Positions 5,059 through 62,082 of a DNA stretch of 64,000 nucleotides are shown piece by piece. Made by a program: the position numbers and the translations under genes. The notes under the pieces are model-generated. The model was not told the DNA's origin, searched no databases, and saw only the letters and a list, made by a program, of their open reading frames with translations. Each line of letters begins with the position of its first letter. Position 1 is the first letter of the stretch. This DNA comes from Mesostigma viride (taxonomy: Eukaryota; Streptophyta; Mesostigmatophyceae; Mesostigmatales; Mesostigmataceae). Location of the stretch: contig RPFO01000117.1 in NCBI GenBank assembly GCA_009746045.1, positions 1 to 64,000 on the forward strand, written 5' to 3'.

Positions 5059-8000
5059 GTGTGTTGTACGTGCAAGGTGTATGTACATGTGTGTGCAGCC
5101 GGCCCTTGCGTGCGCGGTGTGTGTACGTTTCTGTGCAGCCGCCCCTTGCGTGCGCGGTGTATGTACGTGTGTGTGCATGCCGGCCCTTGCGTGCATGGTG
5201 TGTGTACGTGTGTGTGCAGCCGCCCCTTGCGTGCGCGGTGTATGTACATGTGTTTGCACTCGCCCATTGCGTGCGCGGTGTATGTACGTGTGTGTGCAGC
5301 CGCCCCTTGCGTGCGCGGTGGATGTACGTGTGTGCGCACTCGCCCCTTGCGTGCGCGGTGTATGTACGTGTGTGTGCAGCCGCCCCTTGCGTGCGCGGTG
5401 TATGTACATGTGTGTGCATCCTTGTCCTTGCGTGCATGGTGTATGTACATGTGAGTGCCGTCGCCCCAACCGTGCATTGTGTATGTACGTGTGTGTGCAG
5501 CCGCCCCTTGCGTGCATGGTGTGTGTACATGTGTGTGCATCCTTGTCCTTGCGTGCATGGTGTATGTACATGTGTTTGCACTCGCCCCTTGCGTGCGCGG
5601 TGTGTGTACGTGTGTGTGCAGCCGCCCCTTGCGTGCATGGTGTGTGTACATGTGTGTGCATCCTTGTCCTTGCGTGCATGGTGTGTGTACATGTGTGTGC
5701 AGCCGCCCCTTGCGTGCGCGGTGGATGTACATGTGCGGGCAGTTGCCCCTTGCGTGCGCGGTGTATGTACATGTGTTTGCACTCGCCCCTTGCGTGCGCG
5801 GTGTATGTACATGTGTGTGCAGCCGCCCCTTGCGTGCATGGTGTATGTACATGTGCTTGCACTGGCCCCGTGCGTGCGCGGTGTATGTACGTGTGTGTGC
5901 AGCCGCCCCTTGCGTGCGCGGTGTATGTACGTGCGTGTGCAGCCGCCCCTTGCGTGCGCGGTGTATGTACATGTGTGTGCATCCTTGTCCTTGCGTGCGC
6001 GGTGTATGTACATGTGTTTGCACTCGCCCCTTGCGTGCGCGGTGGATGTACATGTGTGTGCAGCCGCCCCTTGCGTGCATGGTTTATGTACATGTGTGTG
6101 CAGTCGCCGGCCCCGTGCGTGCGCAGTGGATGTACGTGTGTGTGCAGCCGCCCCGTGCGTGCATGGTGTGTGTACGTGTGTGTGCAGCAGCCCCTTGCGT
6201 GCGCGGTGTATGTACGTTTCTGTGCATGCCGGCCCTTGCGTGCATGGTGTATGTACATGTGCTTGCACTGGCCCCTTGCGTGCGCGGTGTATGTACGTGT
6301 GTGTGCAGCCCCCCTTGCGTGCGCGGTGTATGTACGTGTGTGCGCACTCGCCCCTTGCGTGCGCGGTGTATGTACGTGTGTGTGCAGCCGCCCCTTGCGT
6401 GCGCGGTGTATGTACATGTGTGTGCAGCCGCCCCTTGCGTGTGCGGTGGATGTACATGTGCGGGCAGTTGCCCCTTGCGTGCGCGGTGTATGTACATGTG
6501 TTTGCACTCGCCCCTTGCGTGCGCGGTGTATGTACATGTGTGTGCAGCCGCCCCTTGCGTGCATGGTGTATGTACATGTGCTTGCACTGGCCCCGTGCGT
6601 GCGCGGTGTATGTACGTGTGTGTGCAGCCGCCCCTTGCGTGCGCGGTGTATGTACGTGTGTGCGCACTCGCCCCTTGCGTGCGCGGTGTATGTACGTGTG
6701 TGTGCAGCCGCCCCTTGCGTGCGCGGTGTATGTACATGTGTGTGCATCCTTGTCCTTGCGTGCGCGGTGTATGTACATGTGTTTGCACTCGCCCCTTGCG
6801 TGCGCGGTGTATGTACATGTGTGTGCAGCCGCCCCTTGCGTGCATGGTTTATGTACATGTGTGTGCAGTCGCCCCGTGCGTGCGCAGTGTATGTACGTGT
6901 GTGTGCAGCAGCCCCTTGCGTGCTTTGTGTGTGTACATGTGTGTGAATCCTTGTCCTTGCGTGCATGGTGTGTGTACGTGTGTGTGCAGCCGCCCCTTGC
7001 GTGCATGGTGGATGTACATGTGAGTGCCGTTGCCCTTGCGTGCGCGGTGTATGTACGTGTGTGTGCAGCCGTCCCTTAATTGCGTGCGCGGTGTGTGTAC
7101 GTGTGTGTGCACTCGCCCCTTGCGTGCGCGGTGTATGTACGTGTGTGCAGCCGCCCCTTGCGTGCGCGGTGTATGCCAGTGTGTGTGCATGCCGGCCCTT
7201 GCGTGCAAGGTGGTGTGTAAGTGTGTGTGCAGCCCCTTGCGTGCATGGTGTATGTACGTGTGTGTGCAGCCGGCCCTTGCGTGCATGGTGTGTGTACATG
7301 TGAGTGCAGCCGTCCCTTCCGTGCATGGTGTGTGTACGTGTGTGTGCAGTTGCCCCTTGCGTGCGCAGTGTATGTACGTGTGTGTGCATGCCGGCCCTTG
7401 CGTGCATGGTGTGTGTACGTGTGTGTGCAGTTGCCCCTTGCATGCGCGGTGTATGTACATGTGAGTGCAGCCGCCCAAGAGTATGTACATGTGAGTGCCG
7501 TCGCCCCTAATTGCGTGCATTGTGTGTGTAAGTGTGTGTGCAGCAGCCCCTTGCGTGCGCGGTGTATGTACGTGTGTGTGCAGCCGCCCCTTGCGTGCAT
7601 GGTGTATGTACATGTGTTTGCACTCGCCCCTTGCGTGCGCGGTGTATGTACGTGTGTGTGCAGCCGTCCCTTAATTGCGTGCGCGGTGGATGTACATGTG
7701 CGGGCAGTTGCCCCTTGCGTGCGCGGTGTATGTACGTGTGTGTGCAGCCGTCCCTTGCGTGCGCGGTGTATGTACGTGTGTGTGCAGCCGCCCCTTGCGT
7801 GCATGGTGAGTGAAAGTGTGTGTGCAGCAGCCCCTTGCGTGCGCAGTGTATGTACGTGTGTGTGCAGCCGCCCCTTGCGTGCGCGGTGTGTGTATACTGT
7901 GTGTGCATGCCGGCCCTTGCGTGCATGGTGTGTGTACGTGTGTGTGCAGCCGCCCCTTACATGGGCGGTGTATGTACGTGTGTGTGCATGCCGGCCCTTG

Positions 8001-9952
8001 CGTGCGCGGTGTATGTACGTGTTAATGCAGCCGCCCCTTGCGTGCGCAGTGTATGTCCATGTGTGGGCAGTTTCCCCTTGCGTGCGCGGTGTATGTACGT
8101 GTGTGTGCAGCCGGCCCTTGCGTGCGCGGTGTGTGTACATGTGTGTGCAGTTGCCCCTTGCGTGCGCGGTGTATGTAAGTGTGTGTGCAGCCGGCCCTTG
8201 CGTGCGCGGTGTGTGTACATGTGAGTGCAGCTGCCCCAAGCGTGCGCGGTGTGTGTACATGTGTGTGCAGTTGCCCCTTGCGTGCGCGGTGGATGTACGT
8301 GTGTGTGCATGCCGGCAATTGCGTGCATGGTGTGTGTACGTGTGTGTGCAGCCGCCCCTTGCGTGCGCGGTGTGTGTACGTGTGTGTGCACTCGCCCCTT
8401 GCGTGCGCGGTGGATGTACATGTGTGTGCAGCCGCCCCTTGCGTGCATGGTGTATGTACGTGTGTGTGCAGCCGCCCCTTGCGTGCGCGGTGTATGTACG
8501 TGTTAATGCAGCCGCCCCTTCCGTGCGCAGTGTATGTCCATGTGTGGACAGTTTCCCCTTAATTGCGTGCGCGGTGTATGTACGTGTGTGTGCAGCCGCC
8601 CCTTGCGTGCGCGGTGTATGTACGTGTGTGCAGCCGCCCCTTGCGTGGGCGGTGTATGCCATGCAGTGTGTGTGCATGCCGGCCCTTGCGTGCAAGGTGT
8701 GTGTAAGTGTGTGTGCAGCCCCTTGCGTGCATGGTGTATGTACGTGTGTGTGCAGCTGCCCCTTGCGTGCGCGGTGTGTGTACGTGTGTGTGCAGCCGCC
8801 CCTTGCGTGCGCGGTGTATGTACGTGTGTGTGCAGCCGGCCCTTGCGTGCATGGTGTGTGTACGTGTGTGTGCAGCCGGCCCTTGCGTGCGCGGTGGATG
8901 TACATGGGTGTGCAGTCGCCCCTTGCGTGCGCGGTGTAGGTACGTATGTGTGCAGCCGCCCCTTGCGTGCGCGGTGTATGTACGTGTGTGTGCAGCCGCC
9001 CCGTGGTTGCGCGGTGTATGTACATGTGTGTGCAGTTGCCCCTTGCGTGCGCGGTGTATGTACGTGTGTGTGCAGCCGCCCCTTGCGTGCGCGGTGTAGG
9101 TACGTGTGTGTGCAGCCGCCCCAAGCGTGCGCGGTGTGTGTACATGTGTGTGCAGTTGCCCCTTGCGTGCGCGGTGTGTGTACGTGTGTGTGCAGCCGCC
9201 CCTTGCGTGCGCGGTGTATGTACGTGTGTGTGCAGTTGCCCCTTGCGTGCGCGGTGGATGTACGTGTGTGTGCAGCCGGCCCTTGCGTGTGCGGTGTGTG
9301 TACATGTGAGTGCAGCTGCCCCAAGCGTGCGCGGTGTGTGTACATGTGTGTGCAGTTGCCCCTTGCGTGCGCGGTGGATGTACGTGTGTGTGCAGCCGCC
9401 CCTTGCGTGCGCGGTGTAGGTACGTGTGTGTGCAGCCGCCCCAAGCGTGCGCGGTGTGTGTACGTGTGTGTGCAGTTGCCCCTTGCGTGCGCGGTGTGTG
9501 TACATGTGTGTGCAGTTGCCCCTTGCGTGCGCGGTGTGTGTACATGTGTGTGCAGTTGCCCCTTGCGTGCGCGGTGGTTGTACGTGTGTGTGCATGCCGG
9601 CAATTGCGTGCATGGTGTGTGTACGTGTGTGTGCAGCCGCCCCTTGCGTGCGCGGTGTGTGTACGTGTGTGTGCATGCCGGCAATTGCGTGCATGGTGTG
9701 TGTACGTGTGTGTGCAGCCGCCCCTTGCGTGCGCGGTGTGTGTACGTGTGTGTGCACTCGCCCCTTGCGTGCGCGGTGGATGTACAGGTGTGTGCAGCCG
9801 CCCCTTGCGTGCATGGTGTATGTACATGTGTGTGCAGCCGCCCCTTGCGTGCGCGGTGGATGTACATGTGTGTGCAGCCGAACCTTGCGTGCATGGTGTG
9901 TGTACCTGTGCGTGAAGTCGCTCCTTGCGTGCATGGTGTGTGTACGTGTGTG
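5059..9952. repeat. 40-bp satellite, array 1 (about 122 units)
   Basis: Head-to-tail 40-bp units built from CAGCCGCCCC, TTGCGTGCGCGG and TGTATGTACGTGTGTGTG. Units differ in a few diagnostic places: CAGCCG, CAGTTG, CACTCG, CATCCTTGTC, CATGCCGG or CAGCAG at the start; TGCGCGG or TGCATGG in the middle; TACGTG or TACATG at the end. From about 5,310 rightward the order of variants matches two other places in the window (block A). The array ends abruptly where a palindromic insertion splits a unit. It is CpG-rich with long alternating purine-pyrimidine stretches. All frames are nearly stop-free because the unit lacks stop triplets, which does not imply coding. Confidence 0.95.
5310..9952. repeat. 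Satellite higher-order block A, copy 1
   Basis: A characteristic succession of satellite variants, repeated near 17.6-22.6 and 46.2-51.4 kb. Anchors: CCCCAACCG at 5,464, matching 17,739 and 46,318; and GTATGCCATGCAG at 8,654, matching 21,405 and 50,068. The offset between copies 1 and 2 grows from 12,275 to 12,751 across the block, so units have been gained or lost internally. Confidence 0.85.
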
Positions 9953-10158
9953 AGTTACGTTAAATAGTGCCGGAACCTTTTGCCGCCTGAGGCAAATCGG
10001 TCCGTAACACTATTTTGCCCGGAATAACCACTTCCGAGCACCCAAGTTAATTCGGCCGAATTAACTTGGGTGCTCGGAAGTGGTTATTCCGGGCAAAATA
10101 GTGTTACGGACCGATTTGCCTCAGGCGGCAAAAGGTTCCGGCACTATTTAACGTAACT
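9953..10158. repeat. P palindrome, copy P1 (206 bp, perfect)
   Basis: Two 103-bp arms meet at GG|CC. Outer ends are AGTTACGTTAAATAGTG and its complement. Within each arm is a second, smaller inverted repeat: AAATAGTGCCGGAACC pairs imperfectly with GGTCCGTAACACTATTT, with a TTTGCC/GGCAAA stem between them. No ORF, no tRNA. Confidence 0.95.
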
Positions 10159-10290
10159 AAAACCTGGCCTCGTGGAGGGGGGACGAAGAGCCCGAGACAT
10201 CCGCCTAGGCCGCTGAGCACGCACCACTAAATGCGCCGGAGCTGCCTCAGTGAGGATTCGAACCCCTGACCTCCAAGGTGCACGGGTTTT
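10159..10290 (-). other. Spacer S (132 bp) with a 3' tRNA half on the minus strand
   Basis: Begins AAAACC and ends GGGTTTT, forming short terminal inverted repeats against the palindromes. On the minus strand, 10,290-10,243 reads as the 3' half of a tRNA: anticodon-loop end AAAAC, a short hairpin like a class II variable arm (ACCT-TGG-AGGT), T-loop box GGTTCGAATCC, acceptor strand CTGAGGC and discriminator A. The rest (10,159-10,242) looks like ordinary flanking DNA; no 5' tRNA half is recognisable in it. Confidence 0.75.
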
Positions 10291-10496
10291 AGTTACGTTA
10301 AATAGTGCCGGAACCTTTTGCCGCCTGAGGCAAATCGGTCCGTAACACTATTTTGCCCGGAATAACCACTTCCGAGCACCCAAGTTAATTCGGCCGAATT
10401 AACTTGGGTGCTCGGAAGTGGTTATTCCGGGCAAAATAGTGTTACGGACCGATTTGCCTCAGGCGGCAAAAGGTTCCGGCACTATTTAACGTAACT
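10291..10496. repeat. P palindrome, copy P2 (206 bp, perfect)
   Basis: Same sequence as P1. It is the centre of the 882-bp palindrome and is flanked by inverted copies of the spacer (GGGTTTT on the left, AAAACCC on the right). Confidence 0.95.
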
Positions 10497-10628
10497 AAAA
10501 CCCGTGCACCTTGGAGGTCAGGGGTTCGAATCCTCACTGAGGCAGCTCCGGCGCATTTAGTGGTGCGTGCTCAGCGGCCTAGGCGGATGTCTCGGGCTCT
10601 TCGTCCCCCCTCCACGAGGCCAGGTTTT
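10497..10628 (+). other. Spacer S' (132 bp) with the 3' tRNA half on the plus strand
   Basis: Exact reverse complement of the first spacer. The tRNA half is at 10,497-10,544, directly abutting P2. The B-box GGTTCGAATCC is intact, but the A-box half of a tRNA is missing. Confidence 0.75.
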
Positions 10629-10834
10629 AGTTACGTTAAATAGTGCCGGAACCTTTTGCCGCCTGAGGCAAATCGGTCCGTAACACTATTTTGCCCGGAA
10701 TAACCACTTCCGAGCACCCAAGTTAATTCGGCCGAATTAACTTGGGTGCTCGGAAGTGGTTATTCCGGGCAAAATAGTGTTACGGACCGATTTGCCTCAG
10801 GCGGCAAAAGGTTCCGGCACTATTTAACGTAACT
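10629..10834. repeat. P palindrome, copy P3 (206 bp, perfect)
   Basis: Identical to P1 and P2. Its right end is joined directly to a half palindrome, with no spacer between. Confidence 0.95.
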
Positions 10835-10939
10835 GGCCGAATTAACTTGGGTGCTCGGAAGTGGTTATTCCGGGCAAAATAGTGTTACGGACCGATTTGC
10901 CTCAGGCGGCAAAAGGTTCCGGCACTATTTAACGTAACT
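10835..10939. repeat. Half P palindrome (105 bp), broken at the centre
   Basis: Starts exactly at the central GGCC of a P element and contains one complete arm to AACT. The breakpoint at the symmetry centre suggests hairpin or cruciform cleavage followed by joining to P3. Confidence 0.92.
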
Positions 10940-11071
10940 AAAACCCGTGCACCTTGGAGGTCAGGGGTTCGAATCCTCACTGAGGCAGCTCCGGCGCATT
11001 TAGTGGTGCGTGCTCAGCGGCCTAGGCGGATGTCTCGGGCTCTTCGTCCCCCCTCCACGAGGCCAGGTTTT
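10940..11071 (+). other. Spacer S' second copy, with 3' tRNA half on the plus strand
   Basis: Same 132 bp and same orientation as 10,497-10,628. The tRNA half is at 10,940-10,987. Confidence 0.75.
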
Positions 11072-11277
11072 AGTTACGTTAAATAGTGCCGGAACCTTTT
11101 GCCGCCTGAGGCAAATCGGTCCGTAACACTATTTTGCCCGGAATAACCACTTCCGAGCACCCAAGTTAATTCGGCCGAATTAACTTGGGTGCTCGGAAGT
11201 GGTTATTCCGGGCAAAATAGTGTTACGGACCGATTTGCCTCAGGCGGCAAAAGGTTCCGGCACTATTTAACGTAACT
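11072..11277. repeat. P palindrome, copy P5 (206 bp, perfect)
   Basis: Right-hand end of the composite. The satellite resumes at 11,278 with GTGTGTGCAG, repeating the GTGTG that precedes P1. Confidence 0.95.
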
Positions 11278-14200
11278 GTGTGTGCAGCCGCCCCTTGCGT
11301 GCATGGTGTATGTACATGTGAGTGCCGTTGCCCCTTGCGTGCGCGGTGTATGTACGTGTGTGTGCAGCCGTCCCTTAATTGCGTGCGCGGTGTGTGTACG
11401 TGTGTGTGCACTCGCCCCTTGCGTGCGCGGTGTATGTACGTGTGTGCAGCCGCCCCTTGCGTGCGCGGTGTATGCCAGTGTGTGTGCATGCCGGCCCTTG
11501 CGTGCAAGGTGTGTGTAAGTGTGTGTGCAGCCCCTTGCGTGCATGGTGTATGTACGTGTGTGTGCAGCTGCCCCTTGCGTGCGCAGTGTGTGTACGTGTG
11601 TGTGCAGCCGCCCCGTGGTTGCGCGGTGTATGTACATGTGTGTGCAGTTGCCCCTTGCGTGCGCGGTGTATGTACGTGTGTGTGCAGCCGCCCCTTGCGT
11701 GCGCGGTGTAGGTACGTGTGTGTGCAGCCGCCCCAAGCGTGCGCGGTGTGTGTACATGTGTGTGCAGTTGCCCCTTGCGTGCGCGGTGTATGTACGTGTG
11801 TGTGCAGCCGCCCCGTGGTTGCGCGGTGTATGTACATGTGTGTGCAGTTGCCCCTTGCGTGCGCGGTGTATGTACGTGTGTGTGCAGCCGCCCCTTGCGT
11901 GCGCGGTGTAGGTACGTGTGTGTGCAGCCGCCCCAAGCGTGCGCGGTGTGTGTACATGTGTGTGCAGTTGCCCCTTGCGTGCGCGGTGTGTGTACGTGTG
12001 TGTGCAGCCGCCCCTTGCGTGCGCGGTGGATGTACGTGTGTGTGCAGTTGCCCCTTGCGTGCGCGGTGGTTTTTCGTGTGTGTGCAGCCGGCCCTTGCGT
12101 GCGCGGTGTGTGTACATGTGAGTGCAGCTGCCCCAAGCGTGCGCGGTGTGTGTACATGTGTGTGCAGTTGCCCCTTGCGTGCGCGGTGGATGTACGTGTG
12201 TGTGCAGCCGCCCCTTGCGTGCGCGGTGGATGTACGTGTGTGTGCAGCCGCCCCAAGCGTGCGCGGTGTGTGTACGTGTGTGTGCAGTTGCCCCTTGCGT
12301 GCGCGGTGTGTGTACATGTGTGTGCAGTTGCCCCTTGCGTGCGCGGTGTATGTACATGTGTGTGCAGTTGCCCCTTGCGTGCGCGGTGTATGTACGTGTG
12401 TGTGCAGCCGCCCCTTGCGTGCGCGGTGTAGGTACGTGTGTGTGCAGCCGCCCCAAGCGTGCGCGGTGTGTGTACATGTGTGTGCAGTTGCCCCTTGCGT
12501 GCGCGGTGTGTGTACGTGTGTGTGCAGCCGCCCCTTGCGTGCGCGGTGGATGTACGTGTGTGTGCAGTTGCCCCTTGCGTGCGCGGTGGATGTACGTGTG
12601 TGTGCAGCCGCCCCTTGCGTGCGCGGTGTGTGTACATGTGAGTGCAGCTGCCCCAAGCGTGCGCGGTGTGTGTACATGTGTGTGCAGTTGCCCCTTGCGT
12701 GCGCGGTGGATGTACGTGTGTGTGCAGCCGCCCCTTGCGTGCGCGGTGTAGGTACGTGTGTGTGCAGCCGCCCCAGGCGTGCGCGGTGTGTGTACGTGTG
12801 TGTGCAGTTGCCCCTTGCGTGCGCGGTGTGTGTACATGTGTGTGCAGTTGCCCCTTGCGTGCGCGGTGTATGTACGTGTGTGTGCAGCCGGCCCTTGCGT
12901 GCGCGGTGGATGTACGTGTGTGTGCAGCCGGCCCTTGCGTGCATGGTGTGTGTACGTGTGTGTGCAGCCGGCCCTTGCGTGCGCGGTGTATGTACGTGTG
13001 TGTGCAGCCGCCCCTTGCGTGCGCGGTGTAGGTACGTGTGTGTGCAGCCGCCCCAAGCGTGCGCGGTGTGTGTACATGTGAGTGCAGCTGCCCCAAGCGT
13101 GCGCGGTGTATGTACGTGTGTGTGCAGCCGCCCCGTGGTTGCGCGGTGTATGTACATGTGTGTGCAGTTGCCCCTTGCGTGCGCGGTGTATGTACGTGTG
13201 TGTGCAGCCGCCCCTTGCGTGCGCGGTGTATGTACGTGTGTGTGCAGCCGCCCCTTGCGTGCGCGGTGTAGGTACGTGTGTGTGCAGCCGCCCCAAGCGT
13301 GCGCGGTGTGTGTACGTGTGTGTGCATGCGGGCAATTGCGTGCATGGTGTGTGTACGTGTGTGTGCAGCCGCCCCTTGCGTGCGCGGTGTGTGTACGTGT
13401 GTGTGCACTCGCCCCTTGCGTGCGCGGTGGATGTACAGGTGTGTGCAGCCGCCCCTTGCGTGCATGGTGTATGTACATGTGTGTGCAGCCGCCCCTTGCG
13501 TGCGCGGTGGATGTACATGTGTGTGCAGCCGAACCTTGCGTGCATGGTGTGTGTACCTGTGCGTGAAGTCGCTCCTTGCGTGCATGGTGTGTGTACGTGT
13601 GTGTGCAGCCGCCCCTTGCGTGCATGGTGTATGTACATGTGAGTGCCGTTGCCCCTTGCGTGCGCGGTGTATGTACGTGTGTGTGCAGCCGTCCCTTAAT
13701 TGCGTGCGCGGTGTGTGTACGTGTGTGTGCACTCGCCCCTTGCGTGCGCGGTGTATGTACGTGTGTGCAGCCGCCCCTTGCGTGCGCGGTGTATGCCAGT
13801 GTGTGTGCATGCCGGCCCTTGCGTGCAAGGTGTGTGTAAGTGTGTGTGCAGCCCCTTGCGTGCATGGTGTATGTACGTGTGTGTGCAGCTGCCCCTTGCG
13901 TGCGCGGTGTGTGTACGTGTGTGTGCAGCCGCCCCGTGGTTGCGCGGTGTATGTACATGTGTGTGCAGCCGCCCCAAGCGTGCGCGGTGTGTGTACATGT
14001 GTGTGCAGTTGCCCCTTGCGTGCGCGGTGTATGTACGTGTGTGTGCAGCCGCCCCGTGGTTGCGCGGTGTATGTACATGTGTGTGCAGTTGCCCCTTGCG
14101 TGCGCGGTGTATGTACGTGTGTGTGCAGCCGCCCCTTGCGTGCGCGGTGTATGTACGTGTGTGTGCAGCCGCCCCTTGCGTGCGCGGTGTAGGTACGTGT

Positions 14201-30251: not shown

Positions 30252-30356
30252 AGTTACGTTAAACAGTGCCGGAACCTTTTGCCGCCTGAGGCAAATCGGG
30301 CCGGAACACTATTTTGCCCGGAATAACCACTTCCGAGCACCCAAGTTAATTCGGCC
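30252..30356. repeat. Half P palindrome, diverged, at a satellite/retrotransposon junction
   Basis: One 103-bp arm from AGTTACGTTAAACAG to the central GG, plus CC. It differs from the P consensus at a few positions (AAACAG for AAATAG; CGGGCCGGAAC for CGGTCCGTAAC), so it is an older copy. It stops at the palindrome centre, where integrase sequence of retroelement copy 1 begins. Confidence 0.9.
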
Positions 30357-30885
30357 GACAATGCTGGCAGTGGGATCTGACCACCTGGCATGCACGTCTG
30401 AGTGCTGCCCCCCCTATTGCTGCTGCCACCACCTCTGCACTCACTTCATGCCCATAAAGGAAATGCAACTGCAAAGCAAGCTCCTGTAAACTGATCTGAG
30501 CATCCTCTGCTGGGGACACTCTGCACACCTTGGGAACCATAGATGTGAAGGTTGGTTTAGAGACATAATCTTCTGAAACCAGCTGTAGCACCTTTCCAGA
30601 ACTGCTCACTGCTCTGACAGTGGGGCATGCAGAAGAAGAAGGTGAAGCAGGCACACTCAAGCCAGCATGAGAGGGAGACTCACACTTCTTGCCGTAAGGA
30701 GGCCGCTTGCAGTCCTTGGGGTCACCGTGGGGCGGCCCGTGGCACTTGTGGCACAGGACGTCCAAATGCCCCAGCTCGTCCACGTTCTTGCGGCAGGTGG
30801 GCCGCAGGTGGTACTTCATGCCACAGCGGGTGCACCGCTGAGAAGACTTGTCCTCCTTGTCCTGCTTCTTGTTGTTGTTGTTGTT

Positions 30886-30933
<48 letters not shown>

Positions 30934-33612
30934 ACTGTTGTTGTTGTTGTTGCTGGAGCTGCCCCCCTTGGAGGGAGACTGCCCCTTACCCTTGCCCTTG
31001 CCCCAGCCCCTGCCCTTGCCCTTGCCCTTGCCCTTGCCCTTGCCCTTGCCCTTAAACATTTGTCCCAGCAGGGACTTGACTTCTGCCATAGTGACAGGTC
31101 TCTTGCTCCTGTCTTCCCTCTCCCTATCCTCCTCCTCCCTCTCTTCCCCCCTGACCCTCTTTACAGAGGTGCCCATGGCCCCCTGGCTAAGGGGAGCCAA
31201 GGCCAGCTTGATATAATCCAATGCCTCCTTCATGTCCTCCCAGTATTTTGCCATTCCTGTTGCAAGCATGGCGTAGGTGTTTTTGTCAAGTTTGAGTTTC
31301 TCAAGGAAGGAACGCAGCAAGAACTTGTGATCTAGCTGCTGGACATCAGGACGTGCTTTGATGGCTAGCTCATATTTCTTTGTCTCAGCCACATAGTCCA
31401 CTGATGTGACCCTGTATTCCTCTACCCACCTGAATGCCCCATAGATGTCCACAGATGAGGGGGTGGAGAGGAGGTCAGTTAGCTCCTTCATGAAAGCCTC
31501 CCAAACTGCCCTAGCCTGCGTGTCCTGCCACTTGGGATACCTACGCTGGAAGACAAGAATGAGATTCTGAATCTGAGAAGAGGACTGATGGTAAAAATCC
31601 CCCTGCATGAGAGATCCAAACCAATTCTTGACATTCAGTTCCTCCCTAGCCAGCTGCAGAGAGAGAAGTGCATGATTCCCCTGCTCCCTAGTATACCCCT
31701 CAGGCAGCCCCCTGACATTAATCCTATCCACAGGACGGTTTTCATTGTAAGTGGGTAGCCTAGAGGGGGATGCAGGGGGAGAGGGAGAAGATGGTGTTGC
31801 TGCTGCAGCATTCACAGGAGAGACCTGCTGAGAGGGAAGTGCTACTTGAGTGAGCTGAGCAGGATGGGCAAACATGGGCTGTGTAGGAGGGTTAGACAAC
31901 ATAGGGGTGGGCTGGTTGGGGGTGTGAGTGTGTGTCACTTCCCGCCTCCTGCTGCGGGCCTCCTCCCAATCATGGAAGGTGGGAGAGAGGGACACGTCAT
32001 CGTCAGTAGGGTTAGTAAGATTGTGATGCAACCAGGTAGGCAGAGTTAGCCACCTACCCGCCCCTCTCAGGATGGCGTTGTGTAGGAGCTCCAGCAAACG
32101 CACCAGACGCACCCTGCTGCCCTGCACCCTCCTCCCTGAGAGGAGAGCCTGCAGGGCAGGCAGCAGGTCGTCGCACACCCTGCGTGTGCCCTCTTGGAGG
32201 TTGGGTAGGCCCAGGATGTGCGTGATGATTGCACACACCAGGCTGCCCGCCTCCGCGACATGCATCTGCTGGCTCCTGTCGGCCAGCCCACGGAAGGAGG
32301 CTGTGGCTGTCTGTATGGCACGCCACACGGCCTCATCACGCAGGGTGATGAAGTCGCGACCTTGCAGGTCGCCCTCCAGCAGTGCTGGTTGCTGCCCAGC
32401 TGCGGTGGGACCCTGGGGCCCCTCCGGCCCTGCCAGGGACTTGTCCTTGGTGCGACTAGAGGGGGCCTGCCCCCCAGAGCCGCTGGAGGTGCCCGTGACA
32501 CCCTCCATGGGGGCTGCATCCCCCGCCAGCGCCGGAGGCGCCGGCGTCGCTGCCGGGGTCCCTGCGACCCCGGGCGCTTGTGTCGCCGCCGGGGTCCCTG
32601 CGACCCCGGTGGCCTCCTCAGCCACCTGGCCCCCCACGCGGGGCGGGGGAGCCTGCGGCTGAGGTTGGACCCTCTGACCTGCCAGAGGGTCCTGGGTGGC
32701 TTCACCACCCATGGGCGTGTTGGGGGCGTCTGCCGCCCCGCGCCCCGTCGCAGGCGGCATCGCAGCCGCCTCACGCCTATCCGGGCCCCAGCCAACTGGC
32801 GTGACTTGGGGCCACGCTGGCAACGGAGTCAGCGCGATCTCTGGTCTGGAGACCACGCGCAGCGCCTCTCTCTGGCGCTGCCTGGACGCCCACTGATCAA
32901 CAGTGCCGGGGTTGTGCCGCGGCCGATTGGCGAAACAGTACAGCCAAACCGCCACCTGAACCAGTGGGATCTGCATCCTAAGACGCCCCTCGATCAGCGA
33001 GTGCACCCGATGAACCTCTATCGCATGTATCTGCTCATCTGGAAGCAACTGAAAACGATCGAGCAAGATCCGGCCGTTCACCGCAATGAACGCCGGGATG
33101 TCGTCCTCCCCAAGGGGGAGAAGATGGGGTGGGCGCCCGAACATGACCGGGGGCGGAACATGTTCCCCATACCGGTCAATGTCCATGGTGGCCATCTGTC
33201 GGCCCACGGAAAGGTTGCCAGACGTCGCAGGTGTCTGCGACGAAAGCTCAAGCGAAGGCCGAAGCCTCGCAGGCGGCACCTCGCCATCCTCCTCGGAGGA
33301 ATCACTCCGCTCACGACCCCCGTCACCTGCGACGGGTGAACGTCGTGCCCGGGGGACCTGCCCCCCAGGTGCCATGGCGGACAAACCGCCAGTGGCAAAC
33401 GGCCGCCCGCTCGCCATCCCCCGGGCGCCGGGCCCCACCTGCGGGCCCCGACGCCTGGGTTGGTCAGCGACCACCGTGCGGAAGGGGACGTTGGGCGTCA
33501 CCCTCGCATCGGTGGTGGAGGGCGTGCCCTCCGGCGAAAGGCGGGGTGAGGTGCGCCTGGCAGGCGCCTTCCCCTTGTTGTTGTTGCCGTTGTTGCCGTT
33601 GTTGGACGCCAT
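30346..33612 (-). CDS. Copia-like retrotransposon copy 1: intact Gag reading into truncated integrase
   Basis: A 1,088-codon open frame from ATG at 33,612 (start MASNNGNNGN). I chose this start because the upstream in-frame extension lies in the LTR and primer region. Order: Pro/Ala-rich N-terminal half; a helical capsid-like middle (contains NHALLSLQLAREELNVKNWF and WQDTQARAVWEAF); an acidic-basic stretch EEREEEDREREDR; GK repeats; a polyasparagine run (about 30,870-30,950). Next come two zinc knuckles, CTRCGMKYHLRPTC (CX2CX4HX4C) and CHKCHGPPHGDPKDC (CX2CX4HX5C). The frame then enters the integrase HHCC region (LHFLYGH...CQHC) and stops in the half P palindrome. Gag packages the RNA; the knuckles bind nucleic acid. 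The catalytic integrase, protease and RT are absent, so this copy is not autonomous, but its Gag could still be expressed. Confidence 0.85.
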
Positions 33613-33642
33613 ATCTTTTTTTTTGCTTAAAAAAATATCGAA

Positions 33643-33654
33643 CTTTTCAGTCCA
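33643..33654 (-). promoter_or_regulatory. tRNA primer-binding site, copy 1
   Basis: Read on the minus strand, TGGACTGAAAAG follows directly after the LTR end (CCAACT). The leading TGG complements the CCA tail of a primer tRNA, the standard arrangement in LTR retrotransposons. The tRNA identity is not determined. Confidence 0.75.
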
Positions 33655-34093
33655 AGTTGGATGGAGACTAGGGACGACGAACAACTGCGAAAGCTGAGAG
33701 CGAATGATGATTGTATTACAATAATACAATGAGAGAGAGATGAAAGCTGAGGGCTCAGAATGGAACTGGGCAGACTCGGGTGCTGTGGCACTCCCCAGTG
33801 CTACGCCTATATGCCTATGGCGGTGCTACCTGCAGCACACGACCAGTGGACAAGTGTACACTGCAATGCCATGCGACCACGTCACTAGCATCCAGCTAAG
33901 ACTCGGCCCGTCAGGCCCGGCTACACCGGACCTGGCGGGTCGAGCTAGCACCTAGGAACAGTCTGGCACTAACCGCACATCTGTCCACATGACACCTCAG
34001 TACCGTACACCCTGCCGTACTGTACTGAGGTGTCCCGCTCAGCCGCGGTAGGCAATACGCGGCGCGCAGGCCGGAAATCCGTGTGTCAGCCTA
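33655..34093 (-). repeat. 5' LTR of copia-like copy 1, missing its outer 16 bp
   Basis: 439 bp matching the 455-bp LTRs at 42,089-42,543 and 56,765-57,219 with few substitutions. The match stops at CAGCCTA; the last 16 bp seen in the other copies are replaced by unrelated DNA, so this element is truncated at both ends. The minus strand carries the sense orientation. The short plus-strand ORF inside (start MKAEGSEW) recurs in all three LTRs and is not considered a gene. Confidence 0.88.
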
Positions 34094-35274: not shown

Positions 35275-35860
35275 TGGACATTACTGTAGGAGGTGATGGC
35301 GTATGTGCGTGGATGGTGCTTGAATGGTGGGGGGCTGCAGCAATGCGTGTGTGGATGGTGGTTGGATGGCGAGGGATTGCTGCCATGCATGCACTAATGG
35401 TTGTTTGATGGTGGTGGGCTGCAGCCATGTGTGCGTGGATGATGGTTGGATGGTGGGGGGTTGCAGCCATGTGTTGTGCGTGGATGGTGGTTGGATTGTG
35501 GGGGGTTCAGCCATGCATGCGTGGATGGTGGTTGGATGGTGAGGTTTTGCTGCCATGCATGCGTGCCGATGGTGGTTTGATGGTGGGGGGTTGCAGCCAT
35601 GTGTGCGTGGATGGTGGTTGGAAGATGGGGGGTTGCAGCCATGTGTGCGTGGATGGTGGTTGGATGGTGGGGGGTGCAGCCATGCATGCGTGGATGGTGG
35701 TTGGATGGTGGGGGGATGCTGCCATGCATGCATTAATGGTTGTTTGATGGTGGTGGGCTGCAGCCATGTGTGCGTGGATGATGGTTTGATAGTGGGGGGT
35801 TGCAGCCATGCGTGCGTGGATGGTAGTTGGATGATGGGGGTGTAGGGAGTCCTTGATGGT
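35275..35860. repeat. 42-bp minisatellite, about 13 units
   Basis: Imperfect tandem repeats around GTGGATGGTGGTTGGATGG, GGGGGTTGCAGCCATG and variants, with period near 42 bp. All frames read as low-complexity His/Pro/Thr or Trp/Gly/Val strings, so coding is unlikely. The reverse complement of the same unit lies at 36,366-36,555. Confidence 0.88.
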
Positions 35861-35949: not shown

Positions 35950-36332
35950 GTTCAATTGACAATTGACAATTGACAATTGAATTGACAATTCAATTGACAA
36001 TTCAATTGACAATTCAATTGACAACTCAATTGACAATTCAATTGACAACTCAATTGACAGTTCAATTGACAATTCAATTCAATCAATTCAATTCAATTCA
36101 ATTCAATTCAATTCAATTCAATTCAATTCAATTCAATTCAATTCAATTCAATTCAATTCAATTCAATTCAATTCAATTCAATTCAATTCAATTCAATTCA
36201 ATTCAATTCAATTCAATTCAATTCAATTCAATTCAATTCAATTCAATTCAAGTCAATTCAATTCAAGTCAATTCAAGTCAGTTCAGTTCAATTCAATTCT
36301 ATTCAATTTAAATAATTCAATTCAACTTCGCA
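35950..36332. repeat. (TTCAA)n pentanucleotide microsatellite
   Basis: Begins with interleaved CAATTGACAATT, then becomes a nearly perfect TTCAA run from about 36,070 to 36,250, then degenerates (TTCAAGTCAA). The open frame through it (NSIQF repeats) is a by-product of the five-base unit. Confidence 0.95.
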
Positions 36333-36365: not shown

Positions 36366-36575
36366 ATGGGCAGTTGCAACCACCATCCATGCACGCATGG
36401 CTGCACCCCCCCACCATCCCACCACCATCCACGCATGCATGGCTGCAACCCCCCACCATCCCACCACCATCCATGCACACATGGCAGCAAATCCTCACCA
36501 TCCAACCACTATTTATCCACGCACGCTAGCTGCAGCCCCCAACCATCCAACCATCACAACCCTAAACCCTAAACA
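36366..36575. repeat. Inverted copies of the 42-bp minisatellite, ending in CCCTAAA repeats
   Basis: Three to four units of the 35.3-35.9 kb minisatellite in the opposite orientation (CCACCATCC, CATGCATGGCTGCA). With the left array they form a large inverted repeat with the (TTCAA)n tract in its loop. At about 36,560-36,573 two CCCTAAA heptamers follow directly. Confidence 0.85.
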
Positions 36576-38497: not shown

Positions 38498-39341
38498 TAA
38501 TGCCTTGCCTCTCATGATCTTCTAGCCCAGCCAGATCAATAGCCTCACACCCTGGTTCATTGGCAAGACATGTGAACTGCTGATCCAGTAACAATGCCTC
38601 CACAGGGTAGTACCTGGCCTGAGCAATCAAGAGAGCCCTGAGCAACTGTGTCTTGTCCATTCCAGGTAATGGTTCAATGGTTGTGTACCTTGACCATGCA
38701 TCTTTAAGTGCCAAGTAAGATTGTCCTTTGATATGAAAGACATCTCCTACCACCCTGCCCTTGCTCTTAGTGGGGTAGCTACATGCCACTTAGGGGGTTT
38801 GGGTGCATTGAACTGACAATGCTGGCAGTGGGATCTGACCACCTGGCATGCACGTCTGAGTGCTGCCCCCCTATTGCTGCTGCCACCACCTCTGCACTCA
38901 CTTCATGCCCATAAAGGAAATGCAACTGCAAAGCAAGCTCCTGAAAACTGATATGAGCATCCTCTGAGGGGACACTCTGCACACCTTGGGAACCATAGAT
39001 GTGAAGGTTGGTTTAGAGACATAATCTTCTGAAACCAGCTGTAGCACCTTTCCAGAACTGCTCACTGCTCTGACAGTGGGGCATGCAGATGAAAGAGGTG
39101 AAGCAGGCACACTCAAGCCAGCATGAGAGGGAGACTCACACTTCTTGCCGTGAGGAGGCCGCTTGCAGTCCTTGGGGTCACCGTGGGGCGGCCCGTGGCA
39201 CTTGTGGCACAGGACGTCCAAATGCCCCAGCTCGTCCACGTTCTTGCGGCAGGTGGGCCGCAGGTGGTACTTCATGCCACAGCGGGTGCACCGCTGAGAA
39301 GACTTGTCCTCCTTGTCCTGCTTCTTGTTGTTGTTGTTGTT

Positions 39342-39383
<42 letters not shown>

Positions 39384-42044
39384 ACTGTTGTTGTTGTTGT
39401 TGCTGGAGCTGCCCCCCTTGGAGGGAGACTGCCCCTTACCCTTGCCCTTGCCCCAGCCCCTGCCCTTGCCCTTGCCCTTGCCCTTGCCCTTGCCCTTAAA
39501 CATTTGTCCCAGCAGGGACTTGACTTCTGCCATAGTGACAGGTCTCTTGCTCCTGTCTTCCCTCTCCCTATCCTCCTCCTCCCTCTCTTCCCCCCTGACC
39601 CTCTTTACAGAGGTGCCCATGGCCCCCTGGCTAAGGGGAGCCAAGGCCAGCTTGATATAATCCAATGCCTCCTTCATGTCCTCCCAGTACTTTGCCATCC
39701 CTGTGGCAAGCATAGCGTAGGTGTTTTTGTCAAGTTTGAGTTTCTCAAGGAAAGAACGCAGCAAGAACTTGTGATCTAGCTGCTGGACATCAGGACGTGC
39801 TTTGATGGCTAGCTCATATTTCTTTGTCTCAGCCACATAGTCCACTGATGTGACCCTGTATTCCTCTACCCACCTGAATGCCCCATATATGTCCACAGAT
39901 GAGGGGGTGGAGAGGAGGTCAGTTAGCTCCTTCATGAAAGCCTCCCAAACTGCCCTAGCCTGCGTGTCCTGCCACTTGGGATACCTACGCTGGAAGACAA
40001 GAATGAGATTCTGAATCTGAGAGGAGGACTGATGGTAGAAATCCCCCTGCATGAGAGATCCAAACCAATTCTTGACATTCAGTTCCTCCCTAGCCAGCTG
40101 CAGAGAGAGAAGTGCATGATTCCCCTGCTCCCTCGTATACCCCTCAGGCAGCCCCCTGACATTAATCCTATCCACAGGACGGTTTTCATTGTAAGTGGGC
40201 AACCTAGAGGGGGATGCAGGGGGAGAGGGAGAAGATGGTGTTGCTGCTGCAGCATTCACAGGAGAGACCTGCTGAGAGGGAAGTGCTACTTGAGTGAGCT
40301 GAGCAGGATGGGCAAACATGGGCTGTGTAGGAGGGTTAGACAACATAGGGGAGGGCTGGGGGGGGTGTGAGTGTGTGTCACTTCCCGCCTCCTGCTGCGG
40401 GCCTCCTCCCAATCATGGAAGGTGGGAGAGAGGGACACTTCATCGTCAGTAGGGTTAGTAAGATCATGATGCAACCAGGTAGGCAGAGTTAGCCACCTAC
40501 CCGCCCCTCTCAGGATGGCGTTGTGCAGGAGCTCCAGCAAACGCACCAGACGCACCCTGCTGCCCTGCACCCTCCTCCCTGAGAGGAGAGCCTGCAGGGC
40601 AGGCAGCAGGTCGTCGCACACCCTACGTGTGCCCGCTTGGAGGTTGGGCAGGCCCAGGATGTGCGTGATGATTGCACACACCAGGCTGCCCGCCTCCGCG
40701 ACGTGCATCTGCTGGCTCCTGTCGGCCAGCCCACGGAAGGAGGCTGTGGCTGTCTGTATGGCACGCCACACGGCCTCATCACCCAGGGTGATGAAGTCGC
40801 GACCTTGCAGGTCGCCCTCCAGCAGTGCTGGTTGCTGCCCAGCTGCGGTGGGACCCTGGGGCCCCTCCGGCCCTGCCAGGGACTTGTCCTTGTTGCGACT
40901 AGAGGGGGCCTGCCCCCCAGAGCCGCTGGAGGTGCCCGTGACACCCTCCATGGGGGCTGCATCCCCCGCCAGCGCCGGAGGCGCCGGCGTCGCTGCCGGG
41001 GTCCCTGCGACCCCGGGCGCTTGTGTCGCCGCCGGGGTCCCTGCGACCCCGGAGGCCTCCTCAGCCACCTGGCCCCCCACGCTGGGCGGGGGAGCCTGCG
41101 GCTGAGGTTGGACCCTCTGACCTGCCAGAGGGTCCTGGGTGGCTTCACCACCCATGGGCGTGTTGGGGGCTTCTGCCGCCCCGCGCCCCGTCGCAGGCGG
41201 CATCGCAGCCGCCTCACGCCTATCCGGGCCCCAGCCAACTGGCGTGACTTGGGGCCACGCTGGCAACGGAGTCAGCGCGATCTCTGGTCTGGAGACCACG
41301 CGCAGCGCCTCTCTCTGGCGCTGCCTGGACGCCCACTGATCAACAGTGCCGGGGTTGTGCCTCGGCCGATTGGCGAAACAGTACAGCCAAACCGCCACCT
41401 GAACCAGTGGGAGCTGCATCCTAAGACGCCCCTCGATCAGCGAGTGCACCCGATGAACCTCTATCGCGTGTATCGCCTCATCTGGAAGCAACTGAAAACG
41501 ATCGAGCAAGATCCGGCCGTTCACCGCAATGAACGCCGGGATGTCGTCCTCCCCAAGGGGGAGAAAATGGGGTGGGCGCCCGAACATGACCGGGGGCGGA
41601 ACATGTTCCCCATACCGGTCAATGTCCATGGTGGCCATCTGTCGGCCCACGGAAAGGTTGCCAGACGTCGCAGGTGTCTGCGACGAAAGCTCAAGCGAAG
41701 GCCGAGGCCTCGCAGGCGGCACCTCGCCATCCTCCTCGGAGGAATCACTCCGCTCACGACCCCCGTCACCTGCGACGGGTGAACGTCGTGCCCGGGGGAC
41801 CTGCCCCCCAGGTGCCATGGCGGACAAACCGCCAGTGGCAAACGGCCGCCCGCTCGCCATCCCCGGGCGCCGGGCCCCACCTGCGGGCCCCGACGCCTGG
41901 GTTGGTCAGCGACCCCGTGCGGAAGGGGACGTTGGGCGTCACCCTCGCATCGGTGGTGGAGGGCGTGCCCTCCGGCGAAAGGCGGGGTGAGGTGCGCCTG
42001 GCAGGCGCCTTCCCCTTGTTGTTGTTGCCGTTGTTGGAAGCCAT
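38498..42044 (-). pseudogene. Copia-like retrotransposon copy 2: frameshifted Gag and partial integrase
   Basis: Homologous to copies 1 and 3 from the ATG at 42,044 (MASNNGNNNKGK) to the integrase core, ending after LEDHERQGI where homology stops at 38,498. Compared with the other copies there are single-base losses or gains near 41,863 (C run), 40,360 (G run), 38,967 (TGCTGG reduced to TGAGG), 38,865 (C run) and 38,773 (AGGTGGGG reduced to AGTGGGG). Together they split the frame into at least five pieces. Several lie in homopolymers, so sequencing error is a real alternative to decay. Integrase residues up to the second catalytic Asp (LLLDQQF) are present; protease, RT and RNase H are lost. 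Polyasparagine and GK tracts are shorter than in copy 1. Confidence 0.85.
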
Positions 42045-42076
42045 ATCTTTTTTTTGCTTGTAAAAAAAATATCGAA

Positions 42077-42088
42077 CTTTTCAGTCCA
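42077..42088 (-). promoter_or_regulatory. tRNA primer-binding site, copy 2
   Basis: Same minus-strand TGGACTGAAAAG as in copy 1, immediately inside the LTR. Confidence 0.75.
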
Positions 42089-42543
42089 AGTTGGATGAAG
42101 ACTAGGGACGACGAACAACTGCGAAAGCTGAGAGCGAATGATGATTGTATTACAATAATACAATGAGAGAGCGATGAAAGCTGAGGGCTCAGAATGGAAC
42201 TGGGCAGACTCGGGTGCTGTGGCACTCCCCAGTGCTACGCCTATATGCCTATGGCGGTGCTACCTGCAGCACACGACCAGTGGACAAGTGTACACCGCAA
42301 TGCCATGCGACCACGTCACTAGCAACCAGCTAAGACTCGGCCCGTCAGGCCCGGCTACACCGGACCTGGCGGGTCGAGCTAGCACCTAGGAACAGTCTGG
42401 CACTAACCGCACATCGGTCCACATAACACCTCAGTACCGTACACCCTGCCGTACTGTACTGAGGTGTCCCGCTCAGCCGCGGTAGGCAATACGCGGCGCG
42501 CAGGCCGGAAATCCGTGTGTCAGCCTAAGCATCTCATCTAACT
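42089..42543 (-). repeat. 5' LTR of copia-like copy 2 (455 bp, complete)
   Basis: Read on the minus strand it begins AGTTAGATG and ends CATCCAACT, so the termini are short imperfect inverted repeats rather than the usual TG...CA. The outer end abuts satellite that begins GCAGTTGCCCC. The GCAGT at 42,544-42,548 is the 5-bp partner of the GCAGT preceding the LTR at 56,765. Differences from the LTRs of copies 1 and 3 are single substitutions. Confidence 0.92.
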
Positions 42544-53388: not shown

Positions 53389-53508
53389 AGTTACGTTAAA
53401 TAGTGCCGAATTAACTTGGGTGCTCGGAAGTGGTTATTCCGGGCAAAATAGTGTTACGGACCGATTTGCCTCAGGCGGCAAAAGGTTCCGGCACTATTTA
53501 ACGTAACT
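53389..53508. mobile_element. P palindrome with internal deletion (120 bp)
   Basis: Keeps 19-21 bp of the left arm (AGTTACGTTAAATAGTGCC) joined at CCG to the complete right arm from the palindrome centre. Flanks read ...GCGTGCGC | element | TGCGCGGTG..., giving a 5-bp target duplication TGCGC. CCG microhomology at the deletion point suggests slippage or hairpin excision. Confidence 0.9.
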
Positions 53509-53862
53509 TGCGCGGTGTGTGTACGTGTGTGTGCATGCGGGCAATTGCGTGCATGGTGTGTGTACGTGTGTGTGCAGCCGCCCCTTGCGTGCGCGGTGTG
53601 TGTACGTGTGTGTGCACTCGCCCCTTGCGTGCGCGGTGGATGTACAGGTGTGTGCAGCCGCCCCTTGCGTGCATGGTGTATGTACATGTGTGTGCAGCCG
53701 CCCCTTGCGTGCGCGGTGGATGTACATGTGTGTGCACCCGAACCTTGCGTGCATGGTGTGTGTACCTGTGCGTGAAGTCGCTCCTTGCGTGCATGGTGTG
53801 TGTACGTGTGTGTGCAGCCGCCCCTTGCGTGCATGGTGTATGTACATGTGAGTGCCGTTGCC
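53509..53862. repeat. 40-bp satellite between two P insertions
   Basis: About nine units. Once both neighbouring insertions are removed they read in register with the flanking satellite. Confidence 0.93.
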
Positions 53863-54068
53863 AGTTACGTTAAATAGTGCCGGAACCTTTTGCCGCCTGA
53901 GGCAAATCGGTCCGTAACACTATTTTGCCCGGAATAACCACTTCCGAGCACCCAAGTTAATTCGGCCGAATTAACTTGGGTGCTCGGAAGTGGTTATTCC
54001 GGGCAAAATAGTGTTACGGACCGATTTGCCTCAGGCGGCAAAAGGTTCCGGCACTATTTAACGTAACT
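53863..54068. mobile_element. P palindrome, solo full-length insertion (206 bp)
   Basis: Sequence as P1. The satellite reads ...CCGTTGCC before and TTGCCCCTTG after, so TTGCC is duplicated (5 bp). Removing the insert restores the order seen at 51,400-51,440. This shows that a single palindrome without a spacer is an independently mobile unit. Confidence 0.93.
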
Positions 54069-54100: not shown

Positions 54101-54314
54101 AGTTATTATAAATAGTGACGGAACCTTTTTGCCACTTGGGCAATTAGGTCCGTCACTATTTATCCGGCGAAAACCACTCGCCGGCATCTATTCCGCGTTA
54201 AGTTCACGTGAACGTGGCGCGGAATTGATGCCGGCGAGTGGTTTTCGCCGGATAAATAGTGACGGACCTAATTGCCCAAGTGGCAAAAAGGTTCCGTCAC
54301 TATTTATAATAACT
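54101..54314. repeat. Q palindrome, copy Q1 (214 bp, near-perfect)
   Basis: Ends AGTTATTATAAATAGTG and its complement. Arms match except at the centre, where TTAA faces GTGG around GTTCAC|GTGAAC, which gives the element a polarity. An inner inverted repeat (AAATAGTGACGGAACC with GGTCCGTCACTATTT, loop with TTGCC/GGCAA) lies within each arm. Confidence 0.93.
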
Positions 54315-54512
54315 AAAACGTCGTAGTGTGGGGGCCGATATCTATCGTACCGCTAATGCCTACTGCAGTACCGAATCTCGCCTTAACGATATTCCAACCG
54401 GGCATATTTTCCCTTCTGGCACTTTCGTTTGGCCTTCTGGTATCAATTCCTTCCGGTATTCGGAAATACCTGTGTCACCACAGGGATTCGAACCCCCGAC
54501 TTACGAGGTCTT
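54315..54512 (-). other. Spacer T with 3' tRNA half on the minus strand
   Basis: Starts AAAACG and ends GGTCTT. On the minus strand 54,512-54,473 reads AAGACCTCGTAAGTC, then GGTTCGAATCC (B-box), then the acceptor strand TGGTGAC and discriminator A: a 40-nt tRNA 3' half with a short variable region. The remaining 158 bp is unremarkable. Confidence 0.72.
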
Positions 54513-54726
54513 AGTTATTATAAATAGTGACGGAACCTTTTTGCCACTTGGGCAATTAGGTCCGTCACTATTTATCCGGCGAAAACCACTCGCCGGCATC
54601 TATTCCGCGTTAAGTTCACGTGAACGTGGCGCGGAATTGATGCCGGCGAGTGGTTTTCGCCGGATAAATAGTGACGGACCTAATTGCCCAAGTGGCAAAA
54701 AGGTTCCGTCACTATTTATAATAACT
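54513..54726. repeat. Q palindrome, copy Q2
   Basis: Same sequence and polarity as Q1. Confidence 0.93.
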
Positions 54727-54924
54727 AAAACGTCGTAGTGTGGGGGCCGATATCTATCGTACCGCTAATGCCTACTGCAGTACCGAATCTCGCCTTAACG
54801 ATATTCCAACCGGGCATATTTTCCCTTCTGGCACTTTCGTTTGGCCTTCTGGTATCAATTCCTTCCGGTATTCGGAAATACCTGTGTCACCACAGGGATT
54901 CGAACCCCCGACTTACGAGGTCTT
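54727..54924 (-). other. Spacer T, second copy
   Basis: Repeat of 54,315-54,512. The tRNA half is at 54,885-54,924 on the minus strand. Confidence 0.72.
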
Positions 54925-55138
54925 AGTTATTATAAATAGTGACGGAACCTTTTTGCCACTTGGGCAATTAGGTCCGTCACTATTTATCCGGCGAAAACCA
55001 CTCGCCGGCATCTATTCCGCGTTAAGTTCACGTGAACGTGGCGCGGAATTGATGCCGGCGAGTGGTTTTCGCCGGATAAATAGTGACGGACCTAATTGCC
55101 CAAGTGGCAAAAAGGTTCCGTCACTATTTATAATAACT
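54925..55138. repeat. Q palindrome, copy Q3
   Basis: Same polarity as Q1; centre of the larger Q2-Q4 palindrome. Confidence 0.93.
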
Positions 55139-55336
55139 AAGACCTCGTAAGTCGGGGGTTCGAATCCCTGTGGTGACACAGGTATTTCCGAATACCGGAA
55201 GGAATTGATACCAGAAGGCCAAACGAAAGTGCCAGAAGGGAAAATATGCCCGGTTGGAATATCGTTAAGGCGAGATTCGGTACTGCAGTAGGCATTAGCG
55301 GTACGATAGATATCGGCCCCCACACTACGACGTTTT
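55139..55336 (+). other. Spacer T' (inverted) with 3' tRNA half on the plus strand
   Basis: Reverse complement of T. The tRNA half is at 55,139-55,178, directly next to Q3. Confidence 0.72.
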
Positions 55337-55550
55337 AGTTATTATAAATAGTGACGGAACCTTTTTGCCACTTGGGCAATTAGGTCCGTCACTATTTATC
55401 CGGCGAAAACCACTCGCCGGCATCAATTCCGCGCCACGTTCACGTGAACTTAACGCGGAATAGATGCCGGCGAGTGGTTTTCGCCGGATAAATAGTGACG
55501 GACCTAATTGCCCAAGTGGCAAAAAGGTTCCGTCACTATTTATAATAACT
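55337..55550. repeat. Q palindrome, copy Q4, opposite polarity
   Basis: The central asymmetry is reversed relative to Q1-Q3 (GCGCCACGTTCACGTGAAC). The satellite resumes at 55,551. Confidence 0.93.

Positions 55551-62037: not shown

Positions 62038-62082
<45 letters not shown>

Follow-up and report, generated by a model that had tools for sequence, protein, structure and literature searches.

Nested palindromic elements with 5-bp target duplications form a probable transposon family in Mesostigma viride

Perfect palindromes of 206 bp (P), joined by spacers of 132 bp (S, or S' when reversed), are repeated in the genome of Mesostigma viride. We consider it likely, with a probability of roughly 0.8, that they represent a non-autonomous family of foldback- or MITE-like DNA transposons with the core P-S-P-S'-P and the ends AGTTA...TAACT. 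The sampled copies had 5-bp duplications at their ends and uninserted counterparts of their sites; arms and halves were alike, the S units were ordered heads-out, and breakpoints were mostly central. The copy described first is a composite at positions 9953-11277 of a 64,000-nucleotide stretch of contig RPFO01000117.1, here called the window.

Structure of the window composite and its sister family

An earlier note, made from the sequence alone, counted five full 206-bp P palindromes, two halves and one deletion derivative in the window, and all of these were located by coordinate. The order which it gave for the 9953-11277 group, P1-S-P2-S'-P3-half-S'-P, matches the coordinates of the palindromes and repeats. 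The features are as follows, with the strand given for oriented ones.

9948..9952: left target duplication, GTGTG
9953..10834: P-S-P-S'-P, perfect palindrome of 882 bp; more frequent in the sample than any other form
9953..10158: P1, perfect palindrome of 206 bp
10159..10290, plus strand: S spacer, 132 bp
10254-10264, minus strand: B-box-like GGTTCGAATCC in S
10291..10496: P2, centre of the 882-bp palindrome
10497..10628, minus strand: S' spacer, S reversed, with TTTT at its far end
10523-10533, plus strand: GGTTCGAATCC in S'
10629..10834: P3, perfect palindrome of 206 bp
10835..10939: half P, starting two bases past the palindrome centre and abutting the intact outer end of P3
10940..11071, minus strand: second copy of S'
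11072..11277: last P of the composite, 206 bp
11278..11282: right target duplication, GTGTG
30252..30358: half P that stops just beyond its centre and lacks one outer end
53389..53508: deletion derivative of P with TGCGC on each side, one deletion end being at the palindrome centre
53863..54068: solo P, 206 bp, with TTGCC on each side
54101..55550: sister composite Q-R-Q-R-Q-R'-Q (Q, 214 bp; R, 198 bp) with CGTGT on each side

The block 9953-10834 is itself a single perfect palindrome of 882 bp, a point absent from the earlier note, and S (10159-10290) was found again, exact and reversed, at 10497-10628 and 10940-11071. GTGTG was present on both sides of the composite (9948-9952 and 11278-11282), as claimed; taken alone the pair means little because the surrounding satellite is GT-rich. 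The further claim that excision restores the satellite was borne out: removal of the insert together with one GTGTG gave a 160-bp join identical at 160/160 positions to three uninserted satellite stretches in the same window, beginning at 13524, 17206, and 22542. The composite looks like a single insertion of the rearranged form P-S-P-S'-P-half-S'-P, which was also seen at locus L040 with another half-P joint. Folding of the whole P, compared with shuffled sequences, gave z = -35. A single arm gave z = -2.84, a value equalled by 2 of 200 shuffles; the inverted repeat said to be nested in each arm is therefore real but modest.

The 40-bp satellite occupies 5069-30250, 42543-53855, and 55551-56763 of the window, in arrays of approximately 25, 11, and 1 kb. 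These arrays hold long internal duplications, one 160-bp stretch being exact from each of the three positions given above.

Q and R make up a second family built on the same plan as P and S. A pattern shaped to fit Q occurred 840 times genome-wide, and locus L068 carries a 1,054-bp perfect palindrome of this family. The 5-mers of the Q composite in the window match at both ends. Five Q loci were read; equal 5-mers were found at three, the degenerate L064 was without them, and the sequence of L066 was incomplete. In L064 (496-911), the ends of the element consist of only the 63-bp hairpin part of Q, and this element is perhaps an older form of the family.

Genome-wide copies, target sites and internal order

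The 440-Mb assembly (2,243 contigs, window included) was searched with the terminal 25-mer of P, which gave 1,753 exact copies on both strands (reversed control, 0), and with a 28-mer of S, which gave 887 matches. A light-harvesting gene of the host, with an open frame over the 167 aa compared, matched chains named LHCII or chlorophyll a-b binding, with a long LHCI chain ranking above them and matching in two stretches; this points to a green-lineage alga as the probable host. Forty clusters with distinct flanks were read, a non-random set chosen from best or exact matches in contig order, with clusters having identical flanks merged into one. Clusters lying less than 30 bases from a locus end were left out by the script (at least the first of L047, the first of L052, and L059), and L069-L073 and L059 were excluded from the duplication counts.

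Transposition with a 5-bp target duplication, as proposed in the earlier note, was supported by the sample. Identical 5-mers flanked both ends in 32 of the 33 elements having both outer ends, and pairing flanks across different elements as a control gave equal 5-mers in 3 of 1,560 cases. Two of the 32 sit in simple repeats, where the duplication is read as 7 or 9. The eight clusters without matching 5-mers (8/40) were three fragments in L050, four with an outer end missing (L004, L053, L055, and L056), and L057, which has complete ends and no duplication and is the single exception among the 33. All 33 complete elements start with AGTTA; 32 end with TAACT and one with CAACT. The target 5-mers had no fixed sequence, with A or C as base two in 27/32 and G or T as base four in 20/32; this preference (p = 2e-4) was judged against even base use, not local composition.

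When flanks were joined with one 5-mer removed, at least 8 of 32 other elements matched uninserted DNA at 98-100%. The matches lie in the window for L032, L052, L061, and L062, in L050 for L043, and in their own tandem repeats for L039, L040, and L048. Weaker matches (80-95%) of L005, L013, L017, L036, and L063 were left uncounted.

Palindromes are a known read artefact and the window copy sits in a satellite, so an origin of the palindromes from chimeric reads or array expansion was weighed. Many distinct flanks with matching 5-mers, later insertions nested inside one copy (L050), and the presence of uninserted sites all argue against such an assembly or satellite artefact, which we regard as hardly credible.

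At L047, two P elements (1-317 and 2098-2642) about 2.3 kb apart have the right flank in common, which suggests a tandem segmental duplication.

P-S-P-S'-P was the commonest form, accounting for 16 of the 40 clusters. One S between two P was found in 7/40 and P-S-P-S-P-S'-P in 4/40, the remainder being single examples or fragments. The orientation of S was scored by exact matches only, in the first 100 of the 887 matches to the 28-mer (49 clusters). Two-unit arrays (n = 21) were tail-tail in 20 cases, direct in 1, and head-head in 0, and all eight three-unit arrays were S-S-S' or its mirror image. Clusters scored as having one S numbered at most 17 of 49, an upper bound because only exact 28-mers count; cluster C47, scored in this way, is L042, which holds two S with the second diverged.

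Multi-unit clusters have the AAAACC end of S facing outward on both sides in 31/32 cases (p = 5e-18 under equal use of the four outer-unit orientations), and this heads-out order of the outer units is solid. An excess of inverted junctions was not established. Over the whole genome, junctions found by exact match numbered 40 tail-tail, 16 head-head, and 14 direct, and for these counts independence is rejected (p = 5e-6). It is not rejected for the 51 junctions of the 49-cluster sample (33 tail-tail, 2 head-head, and 16 direct), since about 16 direct junctions are expected by hand calculation if ends are chosen independently.

P alone is unlikely to be the basic unit of movement; the form most often sampled is P-S-P-S'-P, in which the orientation of S is fixed. 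Solo P and P-S-P may have arisen from the larger form by recombination, much as solo LTRs arise from LTR elements.

The longest cluster among the matches listed (G000:C206:17418-19810) has nine S units in mixed orientation. Six S units in strict alternation were found in L073 (1-1901), both ends of which lie beyond the stretch read; such an order is expected from repeated palindromic doubling.

Arm likeness, central breakpoints and possible mechanism

Among 99 P copies, differences per 103-bp arm averaged 0.61 when the two arms of a P were compared, 1.73 for separate P copies in an element, and 2.68 across elements. The two halves of 15 P-S-P-S'-P elements differed by a mean of 5.8 (median, 3), and halves taken from different elements by 11.3 per half; a permutation test gave p about 1e-5, the lowest value it could return. 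L026 and L041, 2 of 16 such elements, have internal deletions and were left out of this comparison. The halves of L042 differ by 33, above the between-element mean.

In L001 and L046, P copies of different subtypes occur in one element and both arms of each P agree. This fits copying of arm from arm and counts against an origin by reverse transcription, as in LTR-type elements. Duplications of 5 bp are usual for LTR-type retroelements, whose terminal repeats follow the TG...CA rule. The family could be read as a miniature retroelement of the TRIM type, with P as terminal repeat, S as internal region, copying through RNA, insertion by a retroviral-type integrase, and arrays and solo P arising by recombination between terminal repeats; the arrays and the Pol III-type motif described below resemble the tandem arrays reported for Cassandra (PMC7215508). 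However, P ends are AG...CT, S is inverted between copies, and the P copies of L001 differ while their arms agree, although reverse transcription should equalise terminal repeats. TGG, a possible primer site, lies seven bases into S and has no counterpart there in R as judged by eye. We hold this reading to be very unlikely.

Truncation or deletion breakpoints inside P fell 1-5 nt past the exact centre in 13 of 16 cases. These were at L003, L004, L026, L040, L041, L052, L056 (two), L057, and L062 and at positions 10835, 30354, and 53406 of the window, the last two being read by eye; later insertions into P (L050) were uncounted. Breakpoints away from the centre were found at L001, L049, and L055. 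Half-P joints of the window type were also present at L040, L056, and L062, where the outer end is shorter by 7, 0, and 3 bases, respectively. Two routes to such a joint are conceivable: a free outer end could be joined to a half broken at the centre, or an element could insert into one of its own P centres, with recombination between arms to follow.

Both the P and the Q composites have little coding capacity, the longest stop-to-stop frames being 67 codons in 9953-11277 and 141 codons in the Q composite. For a foldback- or MITE-like transposon of this kind, a transposase or integrase acting in trans would recognise the outer end, composed of P and the adjoining AAAACC end of S, and would cut at AGTTA...TAACT, with insertion at a 5-bp stagger. 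A free or resected end might fold on its own palindrome and prime copying. Self-copying of this sort would turn P-S-P into P-S-P-S'-P, with one P shared at the junction, and would keep the halves alike. In yeast, single-stranded inverted repeats have been described to fold back into inverted dimers (PMC10164571). P copies are direct and inverted repeats at once, and recombination between them would produce solo P, P-S-P, and longer arrays, each retaining the original duplication; joining of centre-broken halves would give the half-P form of the window. The heads-out order suggests either a preference for P with the AAAACC end of S as the end used or a common origin of the larger forms from a single dimer of this kind.

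The same shapes could also come from a rolling-hairpin replicon, that is, an extrachromosomal linear molecule with hairpin ends at the P centre, which would turn strands around, form inverted dimers sharing one P, and then integrate. P-S-P-S'-P is the dimer expected, arms are homogenised, breaks at the centre are recurrent, and longer alternating arrays exist (L046 and L073). If the ends were alike, however, head-head junctions should equal tail-tail ones, and none was seen in the 21 two-unit arrays; moreover, ordinary fold-back during repair accounts for the same shapes. Such a replicon is considered unlikely. Also unlikely is a transposon with hairpin telomeres, which would exit the chromosome in linear form; its ends, being palindromic, would fold and self-prime as in parvoviruses, the inverted dimer would re-insert with a 5-bp stagger, and self-templating would keep near-kilobase palindromes perfect.

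Spacers, partner search and relation to known elements

S and R have in common GGTTCGAATCC, which we take to be a tRNA-type B box; its first letter is base 27 in S' and base 19 in R'. Both S' and R' finish in TTTT against the next palindrome, and the best local alignment of S with R is a 26-base stretch around GGTTCGAATCC. Upstream of the B box, at a distance of 52 bases in Q/R and 68 in P/S, is a sequence resembling an A box, with a score equalled by 9% and 12% of mononucleotide shuffles, respectively. S and R may be what is left of a tRNA-like unit transcribed by Pol III, for which these motifs are only suggestive.

ARAGORN detected no tRNA gene in the window and, in ten loci, no tRNA within an element; the sole tRNA-Ile was outside the element in L057. 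Rfam searches of the two composites gave 18 and 19 matches to E 1, all below gathering scores, including miRNA hairpin models, Dictyoglomi-1, ceN39, sRNA_2410, and a tmRNA (E 0.5). A weak tRNA-like match to mascRNA at the Q/R joint (E 0.17) was likewise below its gathering score. A tRNA-derived SINE was considered and rejected; the B box is perfect in S and R and the A box weak, and the palindromic ends and 5-bp duplications speak against it.

No autonomous copy was found among the sampled sites, and a pattern for inner sequences other than S or R gave one match, beside a Q end. Polinton ends are AG...CT, as are those of P. Polinton-like viruses are described as making 5-6 bp duplications (PMC12220804), and the family might be a non-autonomous passenger of a Polinton-like or other element with an rve integrase. 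We judge this improbable. The Polinton polymerase profile PF03175 had no match in the genome, with control genomes equally silent. The RAG1 profile PF12940 also had no match, its control being equally silent, so that both negatives carry little weight. In IMG/VR, a 20-base family pattern gave 0 matches, and a 16-base pattern gave 54 stretches, taken as chance, 0 of which had the paired motif within 250 bases.

L050 was tried as an autonomous 4.6-kb P-ended element, with ACTAC on both sides by eye, and proved to be P-S'-P broken by two insertions. As read by eye, one is LINE-like with an 11-bp repeat, GGAAGTGGTTA (5080-6485), and the other is TTAA-flanked with GGGG/CCCC ends (6799-9436), and both lie inside P palindromes. 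Pfam gave no family for the frame of the LINE-like insertion.

The earlier note knew of no named family with this architecture, and none was found in the open-access literature searched, as judged by title and abstract opening. The parts are known in kind from foldback elements, MITEs, and multimers. Like the foldback elements FB of Drosophila and Tm1, the P family has structured long inverted repeats and end duplications, and these elements are mostly non-autonomous. In Tm1 of root-knot nematodes, most duplications are 9 bp long and the ends contain tandem motifs of about 14 bp (PMC3169594). In contrast, the duplication of the P family is 5 bp, its commonest form is loop-free, and its ends are palindromes nested in a larger one.

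MITEs, including multimeric ones, are similarly short and gene-less, with many copies, TIR-like ends, target duplications, and arrays with shared terminal repeats. The P family differs in having a 206-bp palindrome as its terminal unit, which allows any end to act on the left or on the right, and in the heads-out order of its multi-unit arrays. A published survey of MITEs reportedly spans 207 plant genomes. Parvovirus-type hairpin telomeres also have nested palindromes and inverted dimers with one shared terminal palindrome, but the P family has target duplications of 5 bp and lacks any notable coding sequence. Cassandra and other TRIMs, as described in PMC7215508, share arrays of terminal repeats and internal parts, a Pol III-type motif, and a lack of proteins; in the P family, however, terminal repeats are palindromic, internal parts are inverted, and repeats within one element differ.

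What appears new, as not seen in the titles and abstract openings searched, is the combination of perfect nested palindromic ends, a main form that is palindromic throughout, a 5-bp duplication, heads-out order, and two families with this plan. Perfect palindromes of such length are generally unstable in eukaryotic chromosomes. A family that spreads palindromes and has alike arms, with breaks at the centre and fold-back-like products at many sites, would serve as a natural experiment on how palindromes and inverted duplications form, break, and undergo repair.

Elsewhere in the window, three copies of a gag-like frame with abundant GK and N repeats were noted by eye on the minus strand (30348-33825, 38900-42300, and 58280-64000), and a frame neighbouring a gag-like frame matches RVT_2, a copia-type reverse transcriptase. 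Two 42-bp tandem arrays (35305-35840 and 36377-36553), with units that look reverse-complementary, enclose an array of CAATT repeats at 35986-36325.
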